DNA from: Oscillospiraceae bacterium
Lineage (GTDB): Bacteria > Bacillota > Clostridia > Oscillospirales > Ruminococcaceae
Assembly (NCBI GenBank): GCA_015067175.1
Contig: SVMX01000007.1
Location: forward strand, 82,690-146,689
Length of the DNA: 64,000 nt
Direction: 5' to 3'
Below are positions 8,371 through 24,312 of the stretch, one piece after another. The position numbers and the translations under genes were made by a program. How positions within the stretch are numbered: the first letter of the stretch is position 1; the number at the start of each line of letters is the position of its first letter. The notes below the pieces were generated by a model. That model did not search any database and was not told the DNA's origin. It saw only the letters and a program-made list of their open reading frames with translations.

Positions 8371-8519
8371 TAAATTAACAGATGATTTGTAGTACCGCCC
8401 ATTTTTGATTAATCAAGGTAAGCAGTACACCACTTCCAACGCCTTTGGCGTTGCGATGAAAGCACTGACGATAGTTTTCAGCGGCTATGACTATCCCGAC
8501 AGGGGCGGGTCTAATCGGC

Positions 8520-8549
8520 TTGACAAGACCCGCATGCCTGTGATATACT
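8520..8549 (+). promoter_or_regulatory. Promoter of the ECF sigma operon
   Basis: TTGACA (8520-8525), 18 bases, TATACT (8544-8549), 29 bases before the sigma-factor ATG. It is a housekeeping-type promoter. Between 8438 and 8454 a small hairpin CAACGCC-TTT-GGCGTTG precedes it. Confidence 0.7.
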
Positions 8550-8578
8550 TCAGTTGAGTGAAATAAAGGAGGGCAGAT

Positions 8579-9797: not shown

Positions 9798-9975
9798 TAA
9801 AATGCTGCATGAACTGACTAAGAAAGGTGTGGGCTTTTGGTAAAATTATACTGATTTGATTTTTGCTTTTTGTGCAAAACGCAGAAATGCAAGAAATTTT
9901 AAAAATTTATGTAATGCTTTGCCGAATAACGTTGTTTATGTTATAGAGGGACTCCTCAGGAAAGGTGGCGAAAAA

Positions 9976-10383
9976 ATGAAAAAGCTTTTATCGTGCGTTA
10001 TTGCTGCTGTGATGATGCTTGTATGCTGCACCAATGCGTTTGCTGCGGCGCAAACGAGGGCGGTTGGCGGACAAAGAAAAGAAAGCTCTTTGGAGATCTC
10101 GGGTAATACCGCTGTCTACATAAGCAATTATGAAGATAGTAGCAAACAGACGCAAAGGGTCGTGATAACGCAGACGCTTGAAAAGCATTGCTATTTCTGG
10201 ACGTGGGAAACGATAGGCAGCGCACGCACCAAGACAGTAAGCGGCAGCTCCGCTTCGCTTTCCGCAAGAGTGAGCGGACTGAAAAGCGGAACATATCGGG
10301 CAAAGACTGTGTTCAAGGTCACCGATAAGTCGGGAAAAACGCAGGAGATAACGGTCTACAGCGCGGAAAAGAAAGTAGCGTAA
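9976..10383 (+). CDS. Small secreted protein of unknown function
   Basis: A 135-residue protein. A clear signal peptide (MKKLLSCVIAAVMMLVCC... ending in NAFAAAQ) points to export. The start at 9976 follows an AGGTGG site; an upstream in-frame ATG at 9856 has no ribosome site and would bury the signal peptide. The mature part is short, beta-rich and Ser/Thr/Lys-rich, with a Trp-containing centre (YFWTWETIG) and an SGLKSGTYRAKTVFKV stretch resembling an immunoglobulin-like fold (weak inference). It lies 180 bp after the anti-sigma gene and may be regulated with it. No family recognised. Confidence 0.7.
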   Translation: MKKLLSCVIAAVMMLVCCTNAFAAAQTRAVGGQRKESSLEISGNTAVYISNYEDSSKQTQRVVITQTLEKHCYFWTWETIGSARTKTVSGSSASLSARVSGLKSGTYRAKTVFKVTDKSGKTQEITVYSAEKKVA

Positions 10384-10426
10384 GCTGAACAATGAGTAAA
10401 AAATGAATTATATGGAGGAAATTATT

Positions 10427-10787
10427 ATGAAAAAATCAATTTTGAAGACAATTATGTCTTTTTCACTCTCGTTAGTCGTTATGGGTTCGACAATTACTTA
10501 TGCAGAAAAAGCTTGTGATGATACAATGGTTAATAATGGAATATAGTTTTATAAAAGGATACTGCCCTATTATCACACTCACTGATACTTCACAATTAAG
10601 CTATTATCAAGGAAGAAGCTACAACCATTGGGTGACTGTTTCGCAGATTGATGACATTCACCACACAGTGACTTTAGTTGATCCGTTTAATCCAGAATTG
10701 TGTAACGGTTTATCTTCTTTTGGTGGCACTCATGTGGTAACAATGGATGAATTTTATGCTGCGATCGGTGTTGGTGGTGATTGTTGA
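10427..10787 (+). pseudogene. Remnant of a secreted C39-like cysteine peptidase
   Basis: A good ribosome site (GGAGG) and ATG at 10427 open a signal peptide (MKKSILKTIMSFSLSL... ITYA) that stops after 39 codons at 10544-10546. In another frame, 10536-10787 encodes a tail with YYQGRSYNHWVTVSQID and VTLVDPFNP. These resemble the His-containing half of peptidase C39-like domains. The N-terminal half with the catalytic Cys is missing. An internal deletion plus frameshift best explains the pair. Confidence 0.55.
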
Positions 10788-10855
10788 TTAGTTTTAGATA
10801 CGATGCACCCTGAGTGGGCTGCGTAGTTTCAATAATACAGAAAGCTGAGTGATTA

Positions 10856-12046
10856 ATGATGAAATTTATAAGAAATGTACTATTAATCATCCCTGTTCTA
10901 ATTCTCGTAGGCTGCGAGTCTGCCAAGACAGATGGCATTAGCTTAGTTGATAGCAGTTCTGTTGATTTGGCTCCGGACAGTTCACAGACAAGCATACTGG
11001 CAAGCTCTGTGTCAACTGCACAGCAAGAAGCTGAGACTGTTTCTCTTTCTGCTGAAACGTTGAAATATAGTGTTTCATTGACGTACAATATATATGACGA
11101 ATACAATGGCAGAGCGGAAATATCTCCTGCCACGCTTGAGGTCATGAATAACAGCACGGGCGAAACATATGCAGCGAGTGACAGTTTGTATTTGGGAGAG
11201 TCTTCCGCTGATGATTGCCTGACTATATATAGTCAGCCAAGGCTTAATATCTTAGAGTTCCCCGATTGGTGCATTGCGGCTGTGAGAGTTCCTGAAGCTG
11301 ATAAAGCTGTGCATAAGGTTTGGCTGTATTATTTTAACGACAGCACCGTGCAGCTTCTAGGAAATAGCAGATTTTATCCTTTTATTCCCGCAGACAGTGA
11401 AATCGGTATTGATGCTGAAAACAACTGCTTCTTGCTTACAGATATAAAGGGCGACAGTGCACGATACACTGTTGTGCTAGATAAAAACGAGCCGATATAT
11501 CCCTATTGCCTGAGGTCTGTGGATCATATAGCGGAGCCTGTTGTATTAACTCACACTACGGCTTTCGGAAAGATTAGTTTTTCTTATGATGTGTATGACC
11601 GCAGTGACAACCATCTGAAGATATCTGCGCATAATTTTGTGGAATTTGAAGATAACCGAGGCGAAAAGCATAGCTGTGAGGTTAAGTCGCCTGTGTATCA
11701 GCCTGCTATGAGCTATGATGGGCTTACTGATATTGAAGCTCATATGGAGCTTGAAATCGCAGCGCTTGCCGATTGGGGCGTTGTTGCAGTGAGAGTTCCG
11801 ACGACAGATCCACAGAGTGGGGCACAGCTTCATGTTGCTTCGTTCTACTATTTTGATAGAGATACATTTCAGCAGCTTGGCGACGGATATTTCTTCCCTG
11901 AATTGCTCGCAGACTGCAAAATTGTAGCAGATAGTGAGAATAATTGTTTTTCTTTTACAAATGCAGATGGAGTTGCTGAGCGGTATACTGTCGTTGCAGA
12001 TACGGACGCTTCACAGCATATTCTGCTTCAGCCCATCGTTGATTGA
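10856..12046 (+). CDS. Lipoprotein with an internally duplicated domain, unknown function
   Basis: A 396-residue protein. The N-terminus has a signal with lipobox LILVGC (Cys about 20), then a Ser-rich linker to about residue 65. Two homologous halves follow, about 68-220 and 235-396. Each contains YxxYD, an A(A/V)VRVP segment after a Trp (PDWCIAAVRVP / ADWGVVAVRVP), YYF(N/D), an LG(N/D)xxFxP turn, ENNCF and RYTVV. The duplication is visible only as protein, so it is old. The start has a weak ribosome site (GAGTGATT). It is probably a surface-anchored binding protein in the ECF-linked region; no named family. Confidence 0.75.
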   Translation: MMKFIRNVLLIIPVLILVGCESAKTDGISLVDSSSVDLAPDSSQTSILASSVSTAQQEAETVSLSAETLKYSVSLTYNIYDEYNGRAEISPATLEVMNNSTGETYAASDSLYLGESSADDCLTIYSQPRLNILEFPDWCIAAVRVPEADKAVHKVWLYYFNDSTVQLLGNSRFYPFIPADSEIGIDAENNCFLLTDIKGDSARYTVVLDKNEPIYPYCLRSVDHIAEPVVLTHTTAFGKISFSYDVYDRSDNHLKISAHNFVEFEDNRGEKHSCEVKSPVYQPAMSYDGLTDIEAHMELEIAALADWGVVAVRVPTTDPQSGAQLHVASFYYFDRDTFQQLGDGYFFPELLADCKIVADSENNCFSFTNADGVAERYTVVADTDASQHILLQPIVD

Positions 12047-12119
12047 GAAATGTTTTGAAATAAAATTGCAGATAACAAAACTAATAATCCGGAGAGGTTT
12101 AATGTAAGGAGGAATTCAT

Positions 12120-12611
12120 ATGACTGCAAAAAAGATAGTATTGATAGTTCTTGCCGCTATTGTTGCGGTATTGGCGATTGGTTTCGGCATTTTTTATTTA
12201 AATGTAAGTCAGATACGCTTTGACTACTGTGATTCAAATGTATATGTAGATGCACCCGACCTTGACAAGCTGCTGGACAGCGGCTATATCATGTCTTATC
12301 CGTTTTTCGGCAATTCAGCGACCATATCATCGGGTGATGTATATGGTTTTCCGTTCGGTATAGGCGAGCAGAATATTCCTGTGTATGACGCGGTGAATGT
12401 TCACATCAGAGGCTGGGCGTATGCTACGGTGACGGAGTATGATAACAGAGTAAAGATAGATTATAACGTTGAGTCCGACGGAAAAACGCTGACTGTAGTT
12501 TTAAATGGAACAGGCGAAAAAGCGGACGGCGTTGAAGAGAAAATTGAAAAGACCTTTGTATTTGATATTGAAAATGCTTCTCTTGATAATCTGCCGAAGC
12601 TTTTGAGCTGA
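12120..12611 (+). CDS. Membrane-anchored protein of unknown function
   Basis: A 163-residue protein with an excellent ribosome site (AAGGAGG) eight bases before the ATG. Residues 5-27 form one membrane helix (IVLIVLAAIVAVLAIGFGIF), and the rest lies outside the cell. The outer part is rich in Asp, Tyr and Val and likely beta-structured. No family recognised. It is the last plus-strand gene of the ECF region. Confidence 0.7.
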   Translation: MTAKKIVLIVLAAIVAVLAIGFGIFYLNVSQIRFDYCDSNVYVDAPDLDKLLDSGYIMSYPFFGNSATISSGDVYGFPFGIGEQNIPVYDAVNVHIRGWAYATVTEYDNRVKIDYNVESDGKTLTVVLNGTGEKADGVEEKIEKTFVFDIENASLDNLPKLLS

Positions 12612-12622
12612 GAATTGAATGT

Positions 12623-12742
12623 TCATCTGTGCTCAAAATAGCAGCAGCCCGTGCTCTGACAGCTTATTGCGGTGATATCCTCGAGTGTGCACACTCCGTC
12701 CTGCTGCCAACGGCAATCCTCTGCGCATAGTATAAAGTTCAA
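12623..12742 (-). CDS. 39-residue Cys-rich protein (clostridial small zinc-binding-like family)
   Basis: A short minus-strand gene starting at TTG 12742, with GGAGG eight bases before it. The product has the pattern C-A-E-D-C-R-W-Q-Q-D-G-V-C, then C after about ten residues, and ends CCYFEHR. Small clostridial proteins with C-x3-C-x(Y/W)Qx-DGxC-TL and CxYF endings are common and often misnamed hydroxymyristoyl-ACP dehydratase. The Cys pattern suggests metal binding (inference). It runs convergent to the membrane protein upstream, with 11 bases between the stops. Confidence 0.65.
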   Translation of the reverse strand: MNFILCAEDCRWQQDGVCTLEDITAISCQSTGCCYFEHR

Positions 12743-12998
12743 TGCTGTTCCCTCCGTTTGATTTATGATGATATATTGCACCGCGGTATGTTACTGCTTT
12801 TATGATATAGTTGTACAGAACATAGACGGTTAGTATCCGGTGACCTCATGTGCGACATCGGAAGGGCTCATGCTTCACGCTGAGCATGGTCATTACTACG
12901 GAACAGACCGTATAGATAAGAGCATTATTACAAATGACAGGCTGAAGCCTGCGGAGCGTCGATAAAAAAGGAGGACATCTTAATGAACAAGCTAATCC
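12743..12998. other. Non-coding gap with a possible gene remnant
   Basis: No complete gene was found. A plus-strand frame ending at about 12962 encodes HGHYYGTDRIDKSII and ends LKPAERR, but it lacks a start region. Directly after it, AAGGAGG precedes an ATG at 12983 that opens only 20 codons (MNKLIRPFYTP...), running into repeat copy B. This looks like a gene start cut off by the repeat. Confidence 0.35.
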
Positions 12999-13186
12999 GA
13001 CCTTTTTACACTCCAAAACAGCAGATAAAAATTACGTATATCTAGTGAATGAAAACAAGATTCGCTATATGCGGTCAGTTAATTTCTGAAGTTCGTATCT
13101 CTATTTACTTCCACTATGCCAAACGGTGTAATTTTGTGATTTTCCCTCTCTATATTCCTATAATTCCGTGATACATTTGATTGTGT

Positions 13187-13366
13187 ATGACGAAAAAACA
13201 GTCTGAAGTAGCATCAAGACTTGACAACGCAGCGCCCTTGATGTATACTGCAAACAAAGTCTTTACAAATGCCGCTGTTAAGAGTAATTCCGGGCGGGCA
13301 ACAATTTCACGGACAAAGTTCCCATCGTCTTCTTGCGCAGTTGTGGTTGAAGAGACTATGAAGTAA
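13187..13366 (+). CDS. Doubtful 59-codon frame inside repeat copy B
   Basis: An open frame from ATG 13187 (MTKKQSEVASRLDNAAP...) ending VVVEETMK. Copy A has the same ending but a frameshifted start. Codon differences between the copies are largely non-synonymous, and no ribosome site precedes the ATG. I list it because both copies end on the same stop codon; it may equally be non-coding. Confidence 0.25.
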   Translation: MTKKQSEVASRLDNAAPLMYTANKVFTNAAVKSNSGRATISRTKFPSSSCAVVVEETMK

Positions 13367-13422
13367 TCAGCGAAGCGCTGCACCAGATCCGCCTGACAGA
13401 AGTAACAAAATAATAAATAAGA

Positions 13423-13471
13423 TTGCACACGTTATTTGCAGGAAATTGCTATAACGTGTGCAATTTGTTTT
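13423..13471 (+). terminator. Conserved hairpin at the end of repeat copy B
   Basis: TTGCACACGTTAT and ATAACGTGTGCAA form a perfect 13-bp stem with a 15-base loop, followed by TTTGTTTTTT. It is the structural twin of 7971-8020, with a paired base change. Confidence 0.78.
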
Positions 13472-13712
13472 TTGACGAAAAGTAAGAAAGATTTCATGAG
13501 ATTGGATTTGATTTCAATGCGTATACGCTTACTCTCAAAGTAGCAGATTAAAATAAGATCACAAAAGCTCAAATCGTTACTTAACAAATATCTTCGCAAC
13601 CATTGTATATAGATACCCTCACTCCTGAGTGGATTTGAGCAAAGGCCATGAATATTTCACAGCAAAAAATAATTATAATTACTAATTGATATACCAAAAT
13701 CATTTTTATCCA

Positions 13713-13721
13713 TGTTATACT
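13713..13721 (+). promoter_or_regulatory. Extended -10 promoter of the FHA/PP2C/kinase operon
   Basis: TG-T-TATACT is an extended -10 element about 95 bases before the first gene, in an AT-rich 325-bp gap (13491-13815) that holds no gene. No good -35 box is present, which fits the extended type. The leader before the ATG carries GAAAGGAAG as ribosome site. Confidence 0.5.
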
Positions 13722-13815
13722 TGTCTTGCAAATGAAAAATGTCGAAATGCATCGCTGTCTTAAACAAAAACAAATTAATAAGCATATCGGCACATAACGA
13801 AAGGAAGTATTTAAA

Positions 13816-14451
13816 ATGAAACAATGTGAAAACGGTCATATCTACGATGAAAAAACACATTCAGTATGCCCCTACTGCAATCAGGCAGGCTTGTCAGTTG
13901 TTCGTCCGTTAGAGGGAGGCAACGACCTTGCATTCCCGAAGACAACCCCACTTGACACAAGCGGCGCGCCCGATTTCCCAAAAACAACTCCTCTTGAAGC
14001 AGCCAGCACCCCTGTCGTTCCCGCAGCACCTGCGGCTCCTGTAGCTCCTGTAATACCTGCTCGCCCCAAAAAGGAAATGAGCGCTACTATCGCGCTTAAT
14101 GTAAGCGATGCGGGCATCGCCCCCGTATGTGGTTGGCTGGTAGTTGTCGAGGGTGATAATAAAGGAGTGTCTTTCCCTATCCACAGTGAAAAGAATACGA
14201 TCGGCAGAGGCTCAAACTTTGATATAAACCTCTCATTCGATAAGGCTATCTCCAAGGAGGGCGACGCAGTAATTACATACGATTCCCGTGGTAAAAAGTT
14301 CTATGTTACACTCGGTTCGGGCAAGAACAATGTATATCACAACAACGGACTTCTTCTCACGCCCGAAGAGGTAAAGGACTACGACGTGATCGAAGCGGGC
14401 TCGACAAAGATGGTGTTCAGAAGCTTCTGCAACGATGAGTTTACATACTGA
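13816..14451 (+). CDS. Zinc-ribbon / FHA-domain phosphothreonine-binding protein
   Basis: A 211-residue cytoplasmic protein. Residues 1-21 form a Cys/His zinc ribbon (CENGHIY, then CPYC). A Pro/Ala/Thr-rich linker with two copies of FPKTTPL (Thr sites suited to kinase phosphorylation) runs to about 95. An FHA domain fills about 105-205, with the typical NTIGRGSNFDINL strand and a YHNNGLLL turn. FHA domains bind phosphothreonine, so it is probably an adaptor for the kinases of this locus and may itself be phosphorylated in the linker (inference). It is the first gene of a tightly packed operon and its end overlaps the next gene by 17 nt. Confidence 0.85.
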   Translation: MKQCENGHIYDEKTHSVCPYCNQAGLSVVRPLEGGNDLAFPKTTPLDTSGAPDFPKTTPLEAASTPVVPAAPAAPVAPVIPARPKKEMSATIALNVSDAGIAPVCGWLVVVEGDNKGVSFPIHSEKNTIGRGSNFDINLSFDKAISKEGDAVITYDSRGKKFYVTLGSGKNNVYHNNGLLLTPEEVKDYDVIEAGSTKMVFRSFCNDEFTY

Positions 14452-15229
14452 TATGGAAGACAGATTTGTTGTAAGCCTAAGCATCTCAGGCTCAGATGTT
14501 ACCGAGATATCTATCGGAAACGCACAAAGCCGCGGCGCGAGGGATTATCAGGAGGATAGCTTTGGATATACTCCGCTGGATAAGGTCGGCTCAAACGGTT
14601 TTGTGGCAGTCGTTGCCGACGGTATGGGCGGATTGGCGGCAGGCGATAAGGTAAGCTCCTATGTAGTATCCTCGCTTCTGGGTATGCGCGACCTTATAAG
14701 CGGCTGCAATGTTGCGGATAAATTCAGGCAAACGGTCTCGCAGTTAAACCACGATGTCGTTCTCGGCGGAACGGGCGGCGGCTGTACTCTTGCGGCAGTT
14801 TATTGCCGCAGCGACGGAATTTATTGGTGCAGCGTCGGCGACAGCCGTATATATCTATTCAGAAGCGGAATGGTCTTTCAGCTATCCGAGGACGGTGATT
14901 ATCAAAATCAGCTCCTTGATGACGTCATTGCACAAAGGCTCTCGTTTGAGGATATGATCGAAAACGAAAAAAAGGATTCGCTGGTGCATTATATCGGCAG
15001 CAAAAGCGAGCCGATACCCGATGTGAATATATGTCCGCTTATCCCGCGCTCGGGCGATAAGCTGCTGATATGCAGCGATGGCGTATACAATGCGCTCACC
15101 GATGAGGAAATGTCGTTTGCACTTTTAACCCCCGCACAGCAAGCGGCAGACGCACTCGCAAACGCAATAATAAACAAAAACTATACAAATCAGGACAACA
15201 ACACTATGATCGTCCTTGAATTTGTTTAA
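14435..15229 (+). CDS. PP2C-family Ser/Thr protein phosphatase (soluble)
   Basis: A 264-residue PP2C/PPM phosphatase. The metal-binding motifs are intact: ARDYQEDSFG (Asp41), VADGMGG (Asp62, Gly63), VGDSRIY (Asp136), CSDGVYNAL (Asp215) and QDNNTM (Asp254, Asn255). No membrane segment is seen. The frame opens at an ATG inside the preceding FHA gene; a second ATG at 14453, just after that gene's stop, is an equally possible start because neither has a strong ribosome site. It should reverse the kinases' phosphorylation. The protease gene follows after 15 nt. Confidence 0.92.
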   Translation: MSLHTDMEDRFVVSLSISGSDVTEISIGNAQSRGARDYQEDSFGYTPLDKVGSNGFVAVVADGMGGLAAGDKVSSYVVSSLLGMRDLISGCNVADKFRQTVSQLNHDVVLGGTGGGCTLAAVYCRSDGIYWCSVGDSRIYLFRSGMVFQLSEDGDYQNQLLDDVIAQRLSFEDMIENEKKDSLVHYIGSKSEPIPDVNICPLIPRSGDKLLICSDGVYNALTDEEMSFALLTPAQQAADALANAIINKNYTNQDNNTMIVLEFV

Positions 15230-15244
15230 AGAAAGGGAATTATT

Positions 15245-16477
15245 ATGAAAACAATAATGAAACGCTTAGCCATTCTTATGATGGCGCTGCTGACGCTGGT
15301 AGTAAGCAGCACAGTAACTTTTGCAGACACAGTGAAGATAACCAACGCTAATGAAGCAAGAAATGCAGTAGTATGGATAAAGGTGCCTGCCGGCGACGTC
15401 TATTATTCGGGAACAGGCTTTGCCATCGGTGATCCGAATGAGCCCGTGGAGTATATCGTCACAAACGCACACGTAGTAACAATAGATGATAAAGGTACGA
15501 TCGGTTCAAAGGTTCTGGTGTACTTTTCGGAAGCACAAAACGACTATGTTATCACCACAATTTACAAGGTAGACCAGCAAAAGGATATCGCTATCTTAAA
15601 GCTGCCCGAGCCTACAACAAAGCGTACCGCACTTGTACTGTGTCCATCAGACGAAGTGGATATGAACGGTGAGGTCACCGCCTTGGGTTATCCGAGCATG
15701 TCGGACAAACTCAACGACAACAGAAAACATGATATGAATGATATTACCGTCACAAGAGGTATAATTTCCAGAAAATATCACGAAAACAGCAGAATGCGTT
15801 CAATGTATCAGATAGACGCATATATCAATCACGGCAACTCGGGCGGTCCTCTTGTCAACGCAAAGGGCGAGGTCATAGGCATTGCCAGCGGAGGAATTGA
15901 GGGCGAAGCAAATGTTAATGAAGCAATTTGCATCGACGAGCTTATCAATCTTGTTTCGCGCGAGCAGGTAAACTATGTGCTGTCCACTGACGCCGCTCCG
16001 TTCGACCCCACTCCCATCATTATCGTTGCGGCAGCAGTTGTAGTCGTAGCGGCAGCTGCGGTAGTTGTAGTAATCATGATGAAGAAAAACAAGGGTCAGT
16101 CCGCTCCCGCTCCTGTAAGTGCAGCAGCACCCTCAAAGGCAGCCGCTCCTGCAAGTAACAGCTCCGCAAGCCCTGTTATCATCTGCGAAAAGGGACTTCT
16201 TGCAGGTCGTTCTTTCCCCATCGGAGCAAGCGTTATTATCGGCAGAAACACACAGAAGTGCACCATTTGTTTCCCTGTAGACGCAAAGGGCGTATCGGGA
16301 GTTCACTGCGAGATACGCAAGTCCGCTAACGGATATGAGATCATTGACCGCGGTTCTTCCTACGGCACTACCTTAGGAAACGGTCAGAAGCTCACGGCAA
16401 ATGTTCCTGTGGCTATCCCTAACGGAACATATTTTATGGTAGGAAGCGCTGAGCAGCTTTTCCAGATAAAGTATTGA
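15245..16477 (+). CDS. HtrA-like trypsin-family protease with transmembrane helix and C-terminal FHA domain
   Basis: A 410-residue protein with AAAGGG eight bases before the ATG. Residues 1-27 are a signal peptide (ending TVTFA). The S1C-type protease domain covers about 38-245, with a complete triad: His76 in TNAHVV, Asp114 in KDIAIL and Ser199 in GNSGGPL. A very hydrophobic Ala/Val helix spans 257-279, followed by a Lys-rich stop and an Ala/Pro/Ser linker. An FHA domain occupies about 325-408 (IGRN, GVSGVHCEI, GSSYGTTLGNG). The topology is protease outside, FHA inside, linking an envelope protease to intracellular phosphothreonine. No PDZ domain is visible, unlike classical HtrA. Confidence 0.9.
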   Translation: MKTIMKRLAILMMALLTLVVSSTVTFADTVKITNANEARNAVVWIKVPAGDVYYSGTGFAIGDPNEPVEYIVTNAHVVTIDDKGTIGSKVLVYFSEAQNDYVITTIYKVDQQKDIAILKLPEPTTKRTALVLCPSDEVDMNGEVTALGYPSMSDKLNDNRKHDMNDITVTRGIISRKYHENSRMRSMYQIDAYINHGNSGGPLVNAKGEVIGIASGGIEGEANVNEAICIDELINLVSREQVNYVLSTDAAPFDPTPIIIVAAAVVVVAAAAVVVVIMMKKNKGQSAPAPVSAAAPSKAAAPASNSSASPVIICEKGLLAGRSFPIGASVIIGRNTQKCTICFPVDAKGVSGVHCEIRKSANGYEIIDRGSSYGTTLGNGQKLTANVPVAIPNGTYFMVGSAEQLFQIKY

Positions 16478-16478
16478 T

Positions 16479-17660
16479 ATGAATATTGATTTATACAGCT
16501 ATTCGGGAATTGGCGGCAGGCCCGTCAATGAGGACAGTTATGTAACAGGCAACGGCTATTTTATCGTGTCTGATGGTCTCGGAGGCCACGACAACGGCGA
16601 ATTAGCCTCAGGCGCAGTTACACGTTATATAGCTGAAAATTTCACTTCCCCCGACCTTTCAAACGAACACATCTCAAGTCTTATCCAAGGCGCAGATGAG
16701 GCGGTAAAACAGTCTGGTGATGGCGGCAAGGCAACGCTTGCTGCACTCTTCACCGATGGAAGTACGATAAGGCTTGACAACATCGGTGACAGCAGAGTTT
16801 ACTATTTCCGCGGGGGCAATATCCTGTTTCGCACCAAGGATCATTCGGTCTGCCAAGCGTCCGTTGATATGGGCGAAATGACCGATATCGACGTGCGAAA
16901 CAGCGCCGACCGTTCAGGATTGTTCAAGGTGCTGGGCGACAGCGCTCCGCTTAAATTGCCGAAGCCCTATGATCTTATCGACCCGATAAACGGCGACGCA
17001 TTTCTGATATGCAGCGATGGCTTTTGGGAGCATATTTACGAAGCCGAAATGGAAGCCGATCTGCTGAAATCCTACAGCGCAAAGGAATGGCTTGATCATA
17101 TGCTGAAGCGGCATTTGGTGCGCTCAAAGAACAACGGCGATAATTTCACTGCGATATGCGGAATTATTAAATCAGAAAAAGTCGTACCGTATACTATCGC
17201 CGCGCCCGCTGCCGATATACCAAGAACAGTTGAGCTTACAGCTGATACAGTACAATCATCGGTGCCTTTTAAAAGCAAGATCATAATAGCTGCCTGTGCG
17301 CTGATAGCCTTGGCAGCTGTAGCAGCAGCGGTAATACTGCTTATCGTGAACAAGGGGGCTTCGGACGCTCCACCCATTTCATCATCTTCGGAAAGTCAGA
17401 CAATTGAGGATAGTTCATCCACTGTAGAAAGCCCCTCGACCGTGGAAGTACCCTCTACTGTAGAAGCCCCATCTACTGAAGACCCCCCCTCCACTGTGGA
17501 AGCTCCATCTACTGAAGAAACACCCCCAACTGTGGAGAGTCCCTCCACCGAAGAAGCTCCCTCAACCGAGGGAATACCAAATGAGCCTGAAGCTCCAAAC
17601 GAGCCGTTTGACCCAGAGCTTCCCAATATCTTACCCTCTCTTGAACCGTCAATACTGTAA
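16479..17660 (+). CDS. Membrane PP2C-family phosphatase with extracytoplasmic Pro/Ser/Thr/Glu stalk
   Basis: A 393-residue protein starting one base after the protease stop. A PP2C domain spans 1-232 with intact metal ligands: NEDSY (Asp19), VSDGLGG (Asp32), IGDSRVY (Asp104), CSDGFWE (Asp180) and GDNFTA (Asp221). One membrane helix lies at about 267-290. The outer tail of ~100 residues is built of PSTVE/PSTEE-type repeats and ends in a Pro-rich segment. The catalytic domain is inside and the stalk outside, the mirror of a receptor kinase. The stalk may contact the wall or be glycosylated (inference). Confidence 0.9.
   Translation: MNIDLYSYSGIGGRPVNEDSYVTGNGYFIVSDGLGGHDNGELASGAVTRYIAENFTSPDLSNEHISSLIQGADEAVKQSGDGGKATLAALFTDGSTIRLDNIGDSRVYYFRGGNILFRTKDHSVCQASVDMGEMTDIDVRNSADRSGLFKVLGDSAPLKLPKPYDLIDPINGDAFLICSDGFWEHIYEAEMEADLLKSYSAKEWLDHMLKRHLVRSKNNGDNFTAICGIIKSEKVVPYTIAAPAADIPRTVELTADTVQSSVPFKSKIIIAACALIALAAVAAAVILLIVNKGASDAPPISSSSESQTIEDSSSTVESPSTVEVPSTVEAPSTEDPPSTVEAPSTEETPPTVESPSTEEAPSTEGIPNEPEAPNEPFDPELPNILPSLEPSIL
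17403..17573 (+). repeat. Low-complexity coding repeat (PSTVE/PSTEE units)
   Basis: About ten short imperfect units, each encoding a variant of A/S-PST-V/E-E, within the stalk of the membrane PP2C. The DNA units differ by several synonymous changes, so the array is not recent but is prone to length change. Confidence 0.7.
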
Positions 17661-17700
17661 TAATTGCGGGAATATTATTATGTAACGCGAGGTAAAAACA

Positions 17701-20133
17701 ATGATCGAAATAAATGGCAAGCATTTGTGCGAAAGCTGCTTTTGCGAGATGACGGAAGGCGCTTTCTGTACAAACTGCGGCTATAATCCAAGTACGACTG
17801 TCGGAGACCCTACGATGCTGAATCCCGGAAGTGTTCTTCTCGGAAAATACGTTGTCGGAAAAGTAATAGGCAAGGGCGGCTTTGGAGTTACATATGTGGC
17901 ATACGATGTCACCACACAAAAAAAGGTAGCCATAAAGGAATATTTCCCTTATGGCGTAGCGCTTCGCGCCCCCGGCACAACTACCGTTTCCGTTTCGTCG
18001 ATGGATAATGCGGAAGCGTTCAGAATGGGCGCGAAGAAATTCTATAACGAAGCAAAGATGGTATCGCGCTTTAACGGAAACCCCAACATTGTTGGCGTTC
18101 ACGAATTCTTTTACGAAAACGATACCGTATACTTTGCGATGGAATATCTGCAAGGACACACACTGAAAGACCATATCAAAACTCACGGTGTACTGTCCCC
18201 CGCACAAGCGCTTTTCATCATGAATAACGTTTCCAATGCGCTTATGGCGGCGCATAGTTCTAATGTTCTGCACCGCGACATTTCCCCCGACAACATAATT
18301 CTCTGCGATAACGGCAATGTTACGCTGATAGATTTCGGAGCGGCAAGACAGGTCGTGGCTGAACATTCGCAAAGCTTTTCGGTTATCTTAAAGCCCGGCT
18401 TTGCGCCTCTTGAGCAATACCAGAAAAAGGGCAATCAAGGTCCCTGGACGGATATTTATTCACTCGGAACGACTATCTATCATGCACTCACAGGTGATAT
18501 CCCCGAGGACCCCATGTCCAGAATCGACGATGACGAGGAGTTCAGCTCCAATGCTTATGATATTGAGCCTGAGCTTTGGGCGGTTATCCAAAAGGCAACT
18601 CAGCTCAAGGTCGAAGACAGATACGGCGACGTTTTTATGCTGAGAAACGACCTCAGCCGTATCTCGTATCAGCCACAGCCTGTTATAGTTCCGACCGCGG
18701 ATACCAGTGAAAAAATGCCTGAATTTCAGACAGCTGTTCCGTTTGGAATGACGCAGATGAGTACAGCCACAGCAGTTCAGCCTGTTACAAGCGCTGTAAC
18801 TCAGCCTGTGCCTACGCAGAAGAAAAAGTTCAATTTTGCTGAGTTTTGCAAAAAGCACGGGAAGATCATTGCTGGTGTGGCTGCAGTGTTGGTGCTTGGT
18901 ATCGCAGCGGCGATAGTTATCCCCAATGTGTTACAGACAGCCGACAAGCCCACTTACACAAGCGGCGACTATTCTTATGATAACGGCTATAATGACACAA
19001 GCGGCTCGACTTCAGAACCGAACTCTTCTCAGGATAGCACATCATCTTCGCAGGGCGGTTCGTCCTCCTCAAAGCAGATGGATATCATAGAGCTTAACAC
19101 ATTGGCTTCCCAAATAAAAAGAGATTTGGATACTGCAAACACAGCTTATGAAGCAAAAGTCGGAGGAGGCGTTAGTAGAGAACAGCTGTTCGGTTATTTC
19201 AAAGTAACCGATGACGGCAAGTGGTCTATGACGTTTGACGAGTTTGATACTAATGAACACTTGTCTTATCTGTTTGATTATCTGAAAAAAATGCACCCCG
19301 ATATGAGAGATATGTCAGTTTGCGTATACAAAACATACAACTCAAGCTTCGACCTTGTCACCTGCACGCAGGGCGCGGATTCTGTGAACAGTCTTTCGAG
19401 TCTGACGCAGTATATTATCGATTCTATTTGGGTATGGGACCCGTCCGCATTTAAATATGAAATCGGCACCTTTGAATGGGAGGGCTCGACTGTGGGCGTT
19501 ACCGAGGACGGAATGTTGGTAGGTACCTATCCTGTTTTCGGCGCAAAAGGCTCAACGTCACAGAATACAACATCAGAGCCCGAAGCTCCGTCTGATGAAA
19601 AGTTATTTGAAATAAAGGACGCTAATAAGCTAGCTGATGATATCCGCTCCAGATATTCCACTAAGCTGGAAACAATGTCGCTCAATGGTTCGGGCAGAAA
19701 AACAACTGCGCTTGAACTGGTACGCATTGAAGTGGATGGAAACGGATATTGGTCGCTTACAGGCCTTAATCCCGATTATTACGAAACTGTTTCGGCTCAG
19801 GGATACAAATGGAGATGGGAATCAAGTGCAAAGGGTATCAAAGCAGATTCAGGGCAATCAGATAATCATACCGCAAATATGCTGCGTTATCTTGCAGAGT
19901 GCTTTCCTGATGTAAGAAACTGTGCAATGTGCTTAGGCATTAAAGGTATGTCCTGCAGCTTTATTGCCCTTTCTTTCGATATCACAGATGCTGACCGCCT
20001 TATGGAGATCGTAAATGAAATGGACATCAACCATGACGGCGTTGGAAGCACCTATATCTGGGACGGAAAAACTCCGGGTCTTACAAAGGACGGAGCGGTT
20101 ATAGGTACCGACCCGACTGTAAAGCTAAAATAA
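17701..20133 (+). CDS. Receptor Ser/Thr protein kinase with duplicated extracytoplasmic module
   Basis: An 810-residue Hanks-type kinase. Residues 10-26 form a zinc ribbon (CESCFC, CTNC). The kinase domain is at about 50-320 with glycine loop GKGGFG (57-62), Lys79 in AIKE, His-Arg-Asp 191-193 with Asn198, Asp-Phe-Gly 211-213 and APLE in place of APE. The juxtamembrane linker to 388 is Thr/Gln/Pro-rich. The membrane helix is at 389-411 and a Ser/Gly-rich outer hinge follows. Two related modules of ~155-175 residues come next, each ending in G(V/L)T(E/K)DG-(M/A)-(L/V)(V/I)GT-(Y/D)P. There are no PASTA domains. The ligand is unknown. A terminator follows, so the gene closes the first transcription unit of the locus. 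Confidence 0.93.
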   Translation: MIEINGKHLCESCFCEMTEGAFCTNCGYNPSTTVGDPTMLNPGSVLLGKYVVGKVIGKGGFGVTYVAYDVTTQKKVAIKEYFPYGVALRAPGTTTVSVSSMDNAEAFRMGAKKFYNEAKMVSRFNGNPNIVGVHEFFYENDTVYFAMEYLQGHTLKDHIKTHGVLSPAQALFIMNNVSNALMAAHSSNVLHRDISPDNIILCDNGNVTLIDFGAARQVVAEHSQSFSVILKPGFAPLEQYQKKGNQGPWTDIYSLGTTIYHALTGDIPEDPMSRIDDDEEFSSNAYDIEPELWAVIQKATQLKVEDRYGDVFMLRNDLSRISYQPQPVIVPTADTSEKMPEFQTAVPFGMTQMSTATAVQPVTSAVTQPVPTQKKKFNFAEFCKKHGKIIAGVAAVLVLGIAAAIVIPNVLQTADKPTYTSGDYSYDNGYNDTSGSTSEPNSSQDSTSSSQGGSSSSKQMDIIELNTLASQIKRDLDTANTAYEAKVGGGVSREQLFGYFKVTDDGKWSMTFDEFDTNEHLSYLFDYLKKMHPDMRDMSVCVYKTYNSSFDLVTCTQGADSVNSLSSLTQYIIDSIWVWDPSAFKYEIGTFEWEGSTVGVTEDGMLVGTYPVFGAKGSTSQNTTSEPEAPSDEKLFEIKDANKLADDIRSRYSTKLETMSLNGSGRKTTALELVRIEVDGNGYWSLTGLNPDYYETVSAQGYKWRWESSAKGIKADSGQSDNHTANMLRYLAECFPDVRNCAMCLGIKGMSCSFIALSFDITDADRLMEIVNEMDINHDGVGSTYIWDGKTPGLTKDGAVIGTDPTVKLK

Positions 20134-20148
20134 CCGCAATACTAAGTT

Positions 20149-20184
20149 AAAAAGGTCAAGCCAATATCTGCACTTGACCTTTTT
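20149..20184 (+). terminator. Terminator after the first kinase gene
   Basis: AAAAAGGTCAAG (20149-20160) and CTTGACCTTTTT (20173-20184) form a perfect 12-bp stem with a 12-base loop, 16 bases after the stop codon, and the T-run is part of the stem. Confidence 0.85.
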
Positions 20185-20202
20185 GGCGATTTGTGATAGA
20201 AT
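20174..20202 (+). promoter_or_regulatory. Promoter of the second kinase gene, overlapping the terminator
   Basis: TTGACC (20174-20179), 17 bases, TAGAAT (20197-20202). The -35 box is the descending arm of the upstream terminator hairpin, so the two elements share DNA. Confidence 0.6.
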
Positions 20203-20247
20203 AAAATAGTTTATTCTGTCGAAAAAACTACCCAAAGGGGGATCTGA

Positions 20248-22632
20248 ATGATCGAAATAAACGGAAAGAAATTATGCGAAAATTGCTTTGAGGAAATATC
20301 AGGCGAGAAATGCAGCTGCTGCGGCTTTGACCCGTCCGACGGTGTGCTGGATCAATCTCTGCTCGCTTCGGGAAGCATACTGTCAGACCGCTATGTTATC
20401 GGACAGGTAATAGGAAAAGGCGGCTTCGGTACGACATATCTTGCTTATGACGCACTTGTCTGCAAAAAGATCGCCATAAAGGAATATTTCCCTTACGGCA
20501 TTGCACAGCGTACTTTTGAAAGTGCCGATGTATCTGTTTTGTCCGAGGACAATGCACAGGCGTTTAAGCTTGGCGCAGAGAAGTTCTACAACGAGGCGAA
20601 GCTGGTTTCCAGATTCAACGGAAATCCAAACATCGTGGGCGTTTACGACTGCTTTTACGAAAACAACACCGTCTATATGGCGATGGAATATCTCAGCGGC
20701 TGCACCCTAAAGGAGTATATCCGCGAGCACGGAGTTCTCAGTGTTCCTCAGGCGCTGTATGTTGCGAAAAGTGTTGTTGGAGCGCTTGTTGTTGCGCACA
20801 GCGCCTCGATACTGCACCGCGATATTTCGCCCGATAACATTATCATCGGTAACGACGGAAACATAAAGCTTATTGATTTCGGCGCGGCAAGACAGGTCGT
20901 GGCTGAGCATTCACAGAGCTTCTCTGTTATACTGAAACCTGGCTTCGCACCGCCCGAGCAATACAGCAAAAAGGGAAATCAGAGCGCGTGGACAGATGTT
21001 TATTCTGTCGGAACAACGCTTTATTACATGATAACGGGAGATATTCCCGAGGACCCGTCGGCACGCTTTGACAACGACGACACATTTAACGAAAATAAGT
21101 TTGATATCGACCCAGCTCTGTGGGAGGTCATCACAAAAGCGACCAAGCTTAAAGTCGAGGATAGATATCAGGACGCTTATGAGTTAAAAAAGGCGCTTGA
21201 CCTTATTCCGACTGACACTGAGCCGCTTGTTATTCCCGAAGATGCGGAGCAGGAGAACGAGGAAGCCGCGCCCGAGCAGGATAGCCGTTCCGAGCTGACA
21301 GTTTCCATAAAGAAGCCAAAGCAAAAGCAGAGCTTCTGGAAAAAGCACCGCCGCACGTTTATTGAGGTGGTCTGCGGTCTGCTTGTTGTGGCGCTTGTGG
21401 TTCCGCTTGCGATAAAGGCATATACTCCTGTGGTGACAGGCAATCCCCAGTCGGGCACGTCCGATACCTCGTCACAGCCGACAGTGAACGGCTCTGTTGC
21501 GGCGATAGGAGCCAAGCCTACTCTTGAGGATATAAACTACTCGGGTCCGCTGTATGACGGCCTTGATACAGCCGAGCGCCAGCTTTACAGCGATATCTAC
21601 TACGGACTTATCAAGGACGAAAAGGAAATCGTTCTTGACACTCTTACATACACGATAGACGATATAGATTATGTTTACAGCTGTGTTCTGAACGAAGAAC
21701 CCGTGCTTGTCCATACAAGAGGATACAACGTAAACTATAACGATCTGAACAACAACAAGCAGCCCGACCCTGACGAGTATGTAAACTCTATCGCTCCGAT
21801 ATATTCGGGAATAGACAGAGTGGAATACCAAAATTTTATATTAGAGTATATAAAGAATAACCTGCGCGCGAAAGATATTGATAATAGCACTGATGCCGAC
21901 ACGCTCCTGTATAAGGATGTAGAGGCGCTTAAATATTGCTTTAACGATATCGCACTTAACACGACTGTATTGGGAGGATATAATACAAGGCCTTCCGCCT
22001 CCACCGCTTATGGTGCGATGGTTGACCATTACGCAGACAAGCTTGGCGTAGCAAGGGCATTATGTGATGTTGCACAGCGTATGGGTTTTGACAGTTATGT
22101 ACACGAGGGGTACGAAGCTGACGGCGACAAGATCGCGTACTGCCGTGTAAAAATTGATGATGTCTGGTATATGGTAGACGTGTATCTTGCGTCATATTTT
22201 GTACAGAACGGCATTACAGCAGTACCGTTTGCCGAGGACGAAGTATGCCATTTTTACTTTTTAATGGCAGATGCTCCGTCTCTTGAGGATATTTCAGCGA
22301 TAGACGAAAGACAGCGTCACCTCTGGGATACAGGCGATAAGGTGTATAATAATGAGTATGATACCTTATATTATTTTAAGGAACATCTTAAGGTGCCTTA
22401 TTACAGCGAATCTTACGAGGAAACCTATGCCGCACTTCTGGAGGAAACAAAAAAGCAGGCAGACCGGAACAGCAATAAGGTCGATCTCTATGTATTATCG
22501 CTTTATGTAGACACAATTTGGGCAATTATGGAGGAGCAATACATCTCCGACCTTTCCGAGAAATACGGAATTACCATCACAGACTTCACGGGCGAGTATG
22601 CCGATGATTGTCTGCACATTACGCTGACTTAA
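20248..22632 (+). CDS. Receptor Ser/Thr protein kinase with degenerate transglutaminase-like outer domain
   Basis: A 794-residue paralogue of the upstream kinase, with GGGG ribosome site before the ATG. Zinc ribbon CENC/CSCC lies at 10-25. Kinase motifs are intact: GKGGFG, Lys78, His-Arg-Asp 190-192, Asn197, Asp-Phe-Gly 210-212 and APPE. One membrane helix lies at about 371-390. The outer part of ~400 residues contains, at about 590-650, the outline of a transglutaminase-like fold: LGVARALCDVAQRMGF, then VKIDDVWYMVDV. Active family members have Cys after the GV and a His before the VKI strand; here these positions read Ala and non-His, so only the Asp of MVDV remains. It is most likely a catalytically dead binding domain used as sensor (inference). 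It has its own promoter and ends at a strong terminator. Confidence 0.92.
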   Translation: MIEINGKKLCENCFEEISGEKCSCCGFDPSDGVLDQSLLASGSILSDRYVIGQVIGKGGFGTTYLAYDALVCKKIAIKEYFPYGIAQRTFESADVSVLSEDNAQAFKLGAEKFYNEAKLVSRFNGNPNIVGVYDCFYENNTVYMAMEYLSGCTLKEYIREHGVLSVPQALYVAKSVVGALVVAHSASILHRDISPDNIIIGNDGNIKLIDFGAARQVVAEHSQSFSVILKPGFAPPEQYSKKGNQSAWTDVYSVGTTLYYMITGDIPEDPSARFDNDDTFNENKFDIDPALWEVITKATKLKVEDRYQDAYELKKALDLIPTDTEPLVIPEDAEQENEEAAPEQDSRSELTVSIKKPKQKQSFWKKHRRTFIEVVCGLLVVALVVPLAIKAYTPVVTGNPQSGTSDTSSQPTVNGSVAAIGAKPTLEDINYSGPLYDGLDTAERQLYSDIYYGLIKDEKEIVLDTLTYTIDDIDYVYSCVLNEEPVLVHTRGYNVNYNDLNNNKQPDPDEYVNSIAPIYSGIDRVEYQNFILEYIKNNLRAKDIDNSTDADTLLYKDVEALKYCFNDIALNTTVLGGYNTRPSASTAYGAMVDHYADKLGVARALCDVAQRMGFDSYVHEGYEADGDKIAYCRVKIDDVWYMVDVYLASYFVQNGITAVPFAEDEVCHFYFLMADAPSLEDISAIDERQRHLWDTGDKVYNNEYDTLYYFKEHLKVPYYSESYEETYAALLEETKKQADRNSNKVDLYVLSLYVDTIWAIMEEQYISDLSEKYGITITDFTGEYADDCLHITLT

Positions 22633-22641
22633 AACAAAGAA

Positions 22642-22670
22642 CTCCTCCCCTTTTTTGGGGAGGAGCTTTT
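22642..22670. terminator. Terminator between kinase 2 and the XRE gene
   Basis: CTCCTCCCC and GGGGAGGAG flank a T6 loop, followed by CTTTTG on the plus strand. It lies 9 bases after the kinase stop and just beyond the stop of the convergent gene, so it can serve both. Confidence 0.85.
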
Positions 22671-22674
22671 GTGT

Positions 22675-23076
22675 TTAAACATTATCGCTGTTGTACCAAA
22701 TGAAATCCACAGCGTCATAATAATCCATACGGTGATTTATCGCATAGAACACTCTTGCGTCCACAAGATTTCGGACATAGAGCGTTGATTTCCCTGCAAG
22801 CTGCAGCAAATAGTTCATTTCGTCTATATCAAGCTTCAGTATCAGGCTTGTCTGGATAATGAAATTTCTTGTAGGGGTGCGCTTTCCGTTAAGCACCTGA
22901 TAACCGTAGTTGCGGTCAACATTTATCATTCTGATAAGGTCGGATTTTTTAATTTTTCTGTCGTCGATAAGTCGGTTAAGCACATCGGCAAGTTCAGGCG
23001 GAGCCTCATTTATCACAGTGCTCTCATCGAAAGCGCCGCGCTTTTTAAGCTCTTCTTCAAGCTCTACTGTCAGCAA
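22675..23076 (-). CDS. XRE-like helix-turn-helix regulator linked to the kinase locus
   Basis: A 133-residue protein. The centre holds a helix-turn-helix (KKSDLIRMINVDRNYGYQVLNG) followed by KRTPTRNFIIQTSLILKLDIDEMNYLLQLAG. This resembles the small clostridial regulators with YGYQIFxGxRxPSRDKLI that tend to sit beside receptor kinases (from memory of such loci). The C-terminal ~35 residues include a Tyr-rich helix. The TTG at 23076 was chosen because AGAGGTG precedes it. The longer frame starting at 23112 would begin upstream of the predicted transcription start. It is convergent with kinase 2 and could be a phosphorylation target. Confidence 0.75.
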   Translation of the reverse strand: MLTVELEEELKKRGAFDESTVINEAPPELADVLNRLIDDRKIKKSDLIRMINVDRNYGYQVLNGKRTPTRNFIIQTSLILKLDIDEMNYLLQLAGKSTLYVRNLVDARVFYAINHRMDYYDAVDFIWYNSDNV

Positions 23077-23116
23077 AAAATCACCTCTGTTGTCAGAAAT
23101 CAAGTTAACCAATTGT

Positions 23117-23145
23117 ATTATAACATAGATTGCGCGTTATTTCAA
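23117..23145 (-). promoter_or_regulatory. Promoter of the XRE-like gene
   Basis: On the minus strand TTGAAA (23140-23145), 17 bases, TATAAT (23117-23122): an almost perfect sigma-A promoter. Expected transcription start near 23110, which rules out the frame start at 23112. Confidence 0.8.
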
Positions 23146-23270
23146 TAGGTAGAATCAATTAATGATGTTATTATATTGATTTGTCTCAGTTTTTCTGACG
23201 AGTTTTATGTGCAAAACATTACAAATCCATCATCGTTTATAAGTCGATAACGTTTAATAATCACTGTGCC

Positions 23271-23299
23271 TTGACTTATACACTCTCGTATGATACAAT
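23271..23299 (+). promoter_or_regulatory. Promoter of the small Cys-containing protein gene
   Basis: TTGACT (23271-23276), 17 bases, TACAAT (23294-23299), 21 bases before the ATG. Confidence 0.75.
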
Positions 23300-23319
23300 A
23301 ATTCTAAAGGAGTGATCGT

Positions 23320-23559
23320 ATGGACGATTGGCGCTTGAATGGACAGGAAGCTTACCTGTCTGAAGTTAAACTGAAATACATAAGTTTCTCTGGCAGACGC
23401 AACAAAGGCTCTGACCACGAACACTGCGAATTCTGCTGGGAAAAGATAAGCGAATATCCCGATACACTCAGCGCAGCTTACTGTACCGAAAATGAATATC
23501 ATTGGATCTGCGAAACATGCTTTGCTGATTTCAAAGAAAAATTCCGTTGGAAGATATAA
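23320..23559 (+). CDS. Small conserved protein with two CxxC motifs
   Basis: A 79-residue protein with AAAGGAG seven bases before its ATG and a sigma-A promoter directly upstream. It has the pattern MDDWRLNGQEAYL, then DHEHCEFCWEKISE, then YCTENEYHWICETCFADFK. The two Cys pairs (CEFC, CETC) look like one zinc-binding unit. Similar short proteins with DWRLNGQE and DH-HCEFC occur in many Firmicutes as hypothetical proteins; the function is unknown to me. It is monocistronic and ends at a hairpin shared with the convergent response-regulator gene. Confidence 0.8.
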   Translation: MDDWRLNGQEAYLSEVKLKYISFSGRRNKGSDHEHCEFCWEKISEYPDTLSAAYCTENEYHWICETCFADFKEKFRWKI

Positions 23560-23595
23560 CTTTGCTTGAAATGCACTCAAATCTTGCTTAAAAAC

Positions 23596-23635
23596 AAACC
23601 ACACGTTATTTTTATTGATAACGTGTGGTTTTTAA
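23596..23635. terminator. Bidirectional terminator with the ACACGTTAT/ATAACGTGT core
   Basis: AAACCACACGTTAT (23596-23609) and ATAACGTGTGGTTT (23618-23631) form a perfect 14-bp stem around 8 bases. The stem core is the same as in the hairpins ending repeat copies A and B. It serves the convergent genes on both sides. Confidence 0.8.
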
Positions 23636-24312
23636 TTATATCCGTTAGCCGAAAACATATATCCAACGCCGCGCACGCTTTTTATACATTCGCCATAGCT
23701 CGAAAGCTTGCGCCTGAGCTTATTGATATGCACAGTCAATGTGCGATTGTCATCAAGTATCCTGCCCCATACATATGAGGAAAGCTCGCTGCGGCTGAAT
23801 GGTCTTTCGGGCTGTGACATCATGAGATAAAGCAGCTCCATCTCCTTTGGCGAAACCTCTGCGCAAACGCCATCAACGCTCACAGTATAGCTTTTTATAT
23901 CCAACGCAAGTCCTTTGAAGCTCAATATTTTACTTTCCAAGTCTTCCGGCTTGCTATTTTTCAAATGCTCCGCTGTAAGCTCTACAAGTTTGCTGATGGC
24001 AAACGGCTTTAAAATAATGCTGTCAGCATTGCATTGCGAAAGCTGCTGCTCGGATAGGTCATCGCCCATCTCCACAAGCAATATCACAGGAACCTCTCTT
24101 TTTCCTTTCAGTTCCCATATTTCCTCTTGAAGCGCGTCACCGCATAACCCACTATCAAGCAGAATAACATCTGAACGCTCAGCCTCGCTCAGCGAATAAG
24201 CATCAATACGCGAAGAGGAGAAAACCTCCATACCTACTTGCTGAAGCTGCTCAGATATCAGTCTGCGAAGCCGCGCCCCCTCTTCCAACAAAAGTATTTT
24301 TCCGTAAGGCAT
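23632..24312 (-). CDS. OmpR-type response regulator with atypical receiver domain (orphan)
   Basis: A 226-residue protein with a receiver domain at 1-115 and a winged-helix DNA-binding domain at about 125-225 (SPKEMELLYLMM, ELSSYVWG, TLTVHINKLRRKL, SVRGVGYMF). The phospho-acceptor Asp53 (ILLDSGL) and Lys102 (LKPF) are present. The acidic pair reads Glu10-Glu11, and the switch Thr/Ser position after VPVILL is Val. The acidic residues survive but signalling may be unusual. No histidine kinase gene is near. It follows a small membrane protein by 8 nt. Whether the nearby Ser/Thr kinases act on it is open. Confidence 0.87.
   Translation of the reverse strand: MPYGKILLLEEGARLRRLISEQLQQVGMEVFSSSRIDAYSLSEAERSDVILLDSGLCGDALQEEIWELKGKREVPVILLVEMGDDLSEQQLSQCNADSIILKPFAISKLVELTAEHLKNSKPEDLESKILSFKGLALDIKSYTVSVDGVCAEVSPKEMELLYLMMSQPERPFSRSELSSYVWGRILDDNRTLTVHINKLRRKLSSYGECIKSVRGVGYMFSANGYN

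Follow-up and report, generated by a model that had tools for sequence, protein, structure and literature searches.

A conserved locus combining Ser/Thr kinases, PP2C phosphatases and an FHA-tethered protease, a proposed transmembrane phospho-signalling module, in an Oscillospiraceae bacterium and its relatives

The outputs of bacterial Ser/Thr kinases are often unclear. Among the described systems that combine such kinases with phosphatases or reader proteins, PrkC-PrpC and PknB-PstP are PASTA kinase/phosphatase pairs, PpkA-PppA-Fha1 is the threonine phosphorylation pathway of the type VI secretion system (T6SS), and the TerY-P triad and Ter stress systems form a further class for comparison. 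Single components have described counterparts as well, namely GarA and OdhI, FHA proteins whose phosphothreonine motif precedes the FHA domain, the transmembrane (TM)-anchored proteases DegS and MarP, and the FHA-FHA-ABC transporters of the Rv1747 type. Here, we analysed a 64,000-nucleotide stretch (the window) from an Oscillospiraceae gut bacterium (GenBank assembly GCA_015067175.1, contig SVMX01000007.1, positions 82,690 to 146,689 of the forward strand), in which seven reading frames, p1 to p7, were all found to be open. The initial annotation had read them as zinc ribbon-FHA, PP2C, protease-TM-FHA, PP2C-TM, two kinases and an XRE regulator, a helix-turn-helix (HTH) protein, and Pfam and alignment agree with this order and these domains. 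We propose, with a probability of roughly 0.6, that these genes form a single conserved transmembrane module of writer, eraser and reader proteins, whose receptor kinases would make phosphothreonine docking sites that control FHA-tethered membrane effectors, chiefly a protease.

The gene set recurs in other genomes. In a family search, 233 of 247 genomes gave some p3 match, many covering the protease half only, and matches spanning both protease and FHA were found in at least 22 genomes. At E<=1e-40, the p3 profile matched 28/394 genomes in the order, 16/391 in the class and 6/398 in the phylum samples, which share genomes and in which several hits represent the protease half only. The named relatives are two Oscillospiraceae metagenome-assembled genomes and Candidatus Colinaster scatohippi, which suggest that the sampled phylum is Bacillota. 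We fetched the neighbourhoods of good p3 matches (class and phylum hits were included only when they extended into the FHA domain) and annotated them with our own profiles, built from the first loci. This gave 61 loci with the protease-TM-FHA architecture, the window included, from 20 numbered genome families plus L002 and L004, two loci of unspecified kinship. The set leaves out L003, whose p3 is truncated where its contig stops, L110 and L112, which are not protease-TM-FHA, the loci of the host's own genome (L075-L080), and L070, L072 and L073, which hold a protease without FHA and in whose fetched stretches (only 3.7 kb for L070) no kinase, PP2C or FHA was found.

Co-occurrence in other genomes had been set beforehand as the test of the initial annotation. 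Within the 61 loci, a kinase was present in 53 (at least two in 36), a PP2C in 57 (at least two in 48), a zinc-ribbon FHA protein in 51 and any second FHA protein in 55, and kinase, PP2C and second FHA occurred jointly in 51. An HTH gene of the p7 type (HTH7, own profile) was found in 12/61, again counting the window, and at least four core genes lay in one same-strand run in 43 of the 49 loci counted first. As a control, we used 20 ordinary HtrA loci of the same family, hand-picked from the lower part of the p3 match list (15 of about 19.9 kb, five shorter), which contained one kinase, one PP2C, one FHA and no HTH7. The kinase difference alone (53/61 vs 1/20) gives a Fisher p of 2.6e-11 when the loci are treated as unrelated. 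The single positives all come from one locus, L138 (G231:C12), the sole control with kinase, PP2C and FHA genes.

Conservation is also sharply bounded. When 28 genes of the window, reaching as far as position 39800, were compared with 66 fetched loci by tblastn, p1 had relatives in 54, p2 in 57, p4 in 50, p5 in 53 and p6 in 53 (range for p1-p6, 50-66), p7 in 11, and each other tested gene in 0-8. Among the 28 genes, only p1-p6, and less often p7, travel together. In a search for a genomic island by flanking synteny, five fetched stretches held counterparts of only a phosphorylase among the same genes, plus one 36% response-regulator match in one stretch. The earlier claim that writer, eraser, reader and envelope protease make up one conserved locus thus holds, as the outcome that would have refuted it, a lack of co-occurrence in other genomes, was not observed.

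The hallmark protein, p3, has the H-D-S catalytic domain of HtrA/Deg proteases. In 26/26 aligned p3 proteins, the His-Asp-Ser triad and the Gly-Arg and Ser..His residues of an FHA reader are invariant, and the usual FHA Asn position is occupied by Asn, Tyr, Cys, His or Phe. The p3 FHA domain is accordingly predicted to read phosphothreonine. An apparent in-frame stop in the p3 of G152/G058 was discarded, as it falls at the match's upstream edge and the 421-residue frame is open. Besides its conserved gene content, the module has intact catalytic and phospho-binding residues.

For p1, the FHA domain scored 19.5 bits against a Pfam cut-off of 20.7, and p1-type proteins of related loci align with it and retain Gly-Arg; across 25 aligned sequences, Gly-Arg and Ser are kept. 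The linker of window p1 contains two copies of FPxTxP, a number reached in 0/2000 shuffles, and one to three copies occur in 10 of 40 p1 linkers. Other lineages carry different Thr-centred repeats, such as GKTVAA. Overall, Thr-centred repeats exceed composition shuffles (p<0.05) in 20/40 linkers, with a chance expectation of 2, although related linkers are not independent. Given these repeats and the analogy with GarA/OdhI, p1 is the best candidate substrate, which the kinases would phosphorylate on its linker.

FHA-tethered membrane effectors recur in module loci as interchangeable parts. A vWA (von Willebrand A)-TM-FHA protein is present in L067 and L102, and in L054 with the vWA domain just under the cut-off. 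The initial annotation had noted the lack of vWA, which is true of the window but not of the family; since vWA proteins occur in the wider family, their absence is not a defining feature. An FHA-FHA-ABC transporter gene lies within L066, an FHA-DUF4013 protein in L128, and kinase-FHA-TM fusions in L126 and L128. Two further fusions were observed. In L108 (10867-12186, +), a PrsW intramembrane protease is fused to FHA inside a module locus. In L110 (3-1946, -), an HtrA protease-TM protein is fused to a kinase-like C-lobe with a degraded-looking catalytic motif (Pkinase E 0.0059, below the cut-off), a possible pseudokinase-protease.

We envisage the module as follows. The receptor-type Ser/Thr kinases p5 and p6 would sense an outside cue via variable ectodomains and phosphorylate internal threonines, most likely in the p1 linker repeats, possibly in their own juxtamembrane segments and perhaps in p7. 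FHA domains would dock on these phosphothreonines, the one in p3 foremost, and the protease of p3 is predicted to lie outside the membrane. Docking would gather or reorient p3, and proteolysis at the cell surface would thereby be switched or localised, until the two PP2C enzymes, p2 and p4, returned the system to its resting state. The initial annotation had likewise put forward that phosphothreonine could gate the protease from inside. In other family members, the same docking could be used for vWA, PrsW or ABC-transporter effectors. A chain from kinase through phosphothreonine on p1 and p3 FHA docking to altered or localised outside proteolysis is the most economical reading, in which we infer the phosphosites, gating direction, protease substrate and stimulus. 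It is supported by the gene set compared with control loci, the restriction of conservation to p1-p6 and, in part, p7, the invariant p3 residues, the motifs kept in most kinases, p3 as the one FHA match of the host genome, the recurrent FHA-tethered effectors, the fusions and the Thr-centred repeats of p1 linkers. Much more tentatively, p1 might be a phospho-scaffold, whose Thr motifs, arranged in tandem and phosphorylated by rapidly evolving receptor kinases, would gather FHA-tethered effectors (protease, vWA, PrsW, ABC transporter) into one patch as a general plug-in form of inside-out phospho-control across a bacterial phylum.

Several observations weigh against the proposed module. No kinase was seen in 8/61 loci (L004, L069, L074, L094, L109, L113, L123, L129); L094 and L109 sit on very short contigs, and L113 and L129, which lack kinase, PP2C and second FHA genes over 19.9 kb, are real exceptions. 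The FHA domain of window p3 reads SYG where SNG is usual, and the usual FHA His is absent from window p1 and substituted in many of the 25 aligned p1-type sequences, which makes the binding specificity uncertain. The remaining 20/40 p1 linkers, those of related loci again not being independent, have no significant Thr repeat. AlphaFold gave no usable model of either the p5 or the p6 ectodomain (mean pLDDT, a per-residue confidence score, 30.8 and 37.5). In addition, the PASTA-type kinase of the genome pair that we used to compare p5 and p6 with their nearest relatives shows 96% identity in the kinase domain and 60% in the ectodomain.

That comparison was made with L003. The kinase domain of p5 is 97% identical and its ectodomain 30%, the drop starting around the TM segment, while the values for p6 are 90% and 76%. 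With the PASTA-type kinase at 96%/60% and p6 at 90%/76%, fast ectodomains are not unique to the module, p5 being an extreme, and a hypervariable ectodomain as a module-specific sign is weakened by this control. The VxKE, HRD..N and DFG motifs are present in 94 of the 101 kinases of the loci, and of the remaining seven, five are fragments of fewer than 140 residues. The ectodomains of p5 and p6 span about 400 residues each. Neither matched a known family, and a Foldseek search with the low-confidence p6 model returned nothing at E<=0.001. A transglutaminase-like domain had been suspected by eye in the p6 ectodomain, where the Cys is kept and the usual His position is not His; it found no support in Pfam at E<=10 or in the PDB profile search. 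Ectodomains also vary across loci, and the Ser/Thr receptor kinases of L056, L057, L065 and L066 have leucine-rich-repeat ectodomains.

Three other explanations were weighed. The protease could be a constitutive HtrA-like enzyme of envelope quality control, with the FHA domain merely anchoring it near the kinases and no proteolytic signalling taking place. The p3 protease domain does have its best profile matches among solved structures in HtrA/Deg proteases, and the Pfam scan showed neither PDZ nor any other known regulatory domain besides FHA (p3 scores 81.6 bits on TIGR02037, against a cut-off of 416.2). However, ordinary HtrA genes lack this linkage to the gene set (1/20), the FHA residues of p3 are invariant, and the protease is joined by further FHA-tethered effectors, so we consider this explanation unlikely.

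A role in defence or self-recognition, in which variable receptor kinases detect molecules of phages or neighbours and set off damaging proteolysis or an arrest of growth in the manner of the kinase-kinase-phosphatase (KKP) module, seems to us more improbable still. It would suit the patchy distribution (the 28/394 order genomes above; the best match in three congeners reaches only E 1.6e-9), the variable ectodomains and the 36 loci with at least two kinases, and the PADLOC kinase models mad6 and PD-T4-6 do score on p5 and p6. These matches, however, are confined to the kinase domain common to many proteins, no phage gene was found among 15 window genes scanned with Pfam, and no toxic intracellular effector is present. 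KKP kinases themselves carry CSD/FHA and reside mostly in prophages of gram-negative species, according to PMC11341870. A DegS-like scheme, in which p3 cleaves an upstream DUF4367 protein to control the adjacent ECF sigma factor, draws on the presence of both genes at 8579-9797 in the window and is very improbable, as tblastn against the 66 loci turned up no relative of either (0/66 each), for which reason we rejected any link of the module to this pair.

Within the proposed module, p1-p6 are collinear on the plus strand (13816-22632), with a 17-base overlap of p1 and p2 and remaining gaps of 1-114 bases; these distances and the hairpin between p6 and p7 fit one operon (Table 1). The zinc ribbons of p5 and p6 come from a motif search, the p3 signal peptide was judged by eye and hydropathy, and membrane topology is predicted only, since it derives from a simple hydropathy scan. 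The HTH of p7 is weak in Pfam (0.0062, under the cut-off) and XRE-like by eye, and p7 relatives adjoin other module copies.

Table 1 Features of the p1-p7 locus, in window coordinates.
Feature	Position	Strand	Basis
p1: zinc ribbon (CxxGH...CPYC) - Thr-rich linker - FHA, 211 aa	13816..14451	+	Pfam below cut-off, motif, alignment of relatives
First FPKTTP motif of p1 linker (candidate phosphothreonine site)	13933..13950	+	Motif count vs shuffles; function inferred
Second FPKTTP motif of p1 linker (candidate phosphothreonine site)	13975..13992	+	Motif count vs shuffles; function inferred
p2: soluble PP2C phosphatase, 264 aa	14435..15229	+	Pfam PP2C_2 3e-11
p3: signal peptide - HtrA-class protease without PDZ - TM - cytoplasmic FHA (predicted topology), 410 aa; hallmark protein	15245..16477	+	Pfam, hydropathy, alignment
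p3 protease domain (triad H76, D114, S199)	15365..15976	+	Pfam Trypsin_2 1.1e-26; alignment
p3 FHA domain (G333-R334, S351..H354)	16181..16459	+	Pfam FHA 3.5e-12; alignment
p4: PP2C - TM - Ser/Thr/Pro/Glu-rich tail, 393 aa	16479..17660	+	Pfam PP2C_2 2.3e-5
p5: zinc ribbon - Ser/Thr kinase - TM - ectodomain in which two repeats look alike by eye, 810 aa	17701..20133	+	Pkinase 1.2e-37
p5 ectodomain, no known family	18934..20130	+	No family match; comparison with L003
p6: zinc ribbon - Ser/Thr kinase - TM - ectodomain, 794 aa	20248..22632	+	Pkinase 8.6e-39
Terminator-like hairpin between convergent p6 and p7	22642..22665		Hairpin search
p7: HTH (XRE-like) protein, 145 aa; convergent to p6	22675..23112	-	Weak Pfam HTH, by eye, relatives

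The ECF sigma factor and its overlapping DUF4367 gene lie upstream of the module and are not conserved with it. The host genome (G000; 2.14 Mb, 83.8% complete) gave eight kinase and six PP2C matches, and p3 was its single FHA match at E<=1e-3, in a search that under-detects FHA domains, as it missed p1. A separate kinase, PASTA-type by eye, adjoins a PP2C on another contig. A separate Ter-type locus with PP2C, kinase, TerD, YceG and TelA was observed in L076 (G000:C11:142000-161900, 8558-15909). In L077 (G000:C13:12000-31900, 8502-12879), two more TM kinases with related ectodomains stand beside an HTH7-type sequence, and no PP2C, FHA or protease was found in that stretch.

With sensor, kinase, phosphatase, reader and membrane protease together in a compact conserved locus, the whole phospho-pathway could be rebuilt and tested through an output that can be measured, proteolysis outside the cell. 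The module looks like a widespread, so far unnamed route from outside signals to proteolysis at the cell surface. If true, leucine-rich-repeat receptor kinases in bacteria, which in outline resemble plant receptor kinases, and FHA-docked effectors that can replace one another would attract wide interest in work on the evolution of signalling.

Compared with known systems, no PADLOC system matched as a whole: the matches of p3-p6 to several system proteins are limited to the protease, phosphatase or kinase portion, and p1, p2 and p7 match nothing. Nor does any listed NCBIfam model for p1-p6 reach its curated cut-off. The module shares with the PASTA pairs a Hanks-type kinase domain, TM segment, ectodomain and linked PP2C, but has no PASTA repeats and adds an N-terminal zinc ribbon and the protease-FHA partner. 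On the PASTA kinase model NF033483, p5 and p6 score 167.3 and 198.2 bits against 450, with the match stopping near the TM segment, and the Pfam scan gave no PASTA family, in agreement with the earlier statement that this is no PASTA locus. The T6SS pathway likewise uses a kinase, a PP2C and an FHA reader to control a membrane machine, in place of which the module has protease-TM-FHA as effector. The VI_FHA model, for the T6SS FHA protein TagH, gives p3 21.6 bits against 120.25, and no T6SS gene was found among the ten window genes scanned, no whole-genome T6SS search having been made. A type VII secretion link, for which the initial annotation had seen no gene, is rejected for the genomes tested: YukC/EssB (T7SSb) was found in 0/25 genomes with p3-type loci at E<=0.001, and the control search was positive in B. 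subtilis.

A linkage of kinase, zinc ribbon, PP2C and vWA, related to the TerY-P triad, is described in PMC7159879. Like TerY-P/Ter systems, some module relatives combine zinc-ribbon kinase, PP2C and vWA, but their vWA is fused to TM and FHA, and the module has no TerD, TelA or YceG. No stand-alone vWA (TerY) and no TerD or TelA occur in the eight genes scanned at 13816-24312, and with the host's Ter genes on another contig, the locus is rightly kept apart from Ter loci. KKP also places two kinases and a PP2C side by side and uses FHA; its kinases, as PMC11341870 describes them, are 900-1300 bp, carry CSD/FHA and lie mostly in prophages of gram-negative species, whereas p5 and p6 are TM receptor kinases of 2433 and 2385 bp with a zinc ribbon and without CSD or FHA, and the module adds a protease. 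Like GarA/OdhI, p1 is proposed to present a phosphothreonine motif N-terminal to its FHA domain, but it carries a zinc ribbon and its linker motifs are repeated, and the OdhI model is absent from its NCBIfam hits. As in HtrA/DegP/DegS and MarP, a trypsin-like catalytic domain sits at the envelope, but p3 has no PDZ and is predicted to carry a cytoplasmic FHA domain on the opposite side of the membrane. An FHA-FHA-ABC gene of the Rv1747 type lies within one related locus (L066) and not in the window. In the open-access literature searched, we found no description or name for the module, and the initial annotation had likewise known no named system of this composition. Its composition, its conservation across phylum samples and its FHA-tethered effector family appear to be new to that literature, and its parts are of known kinds.

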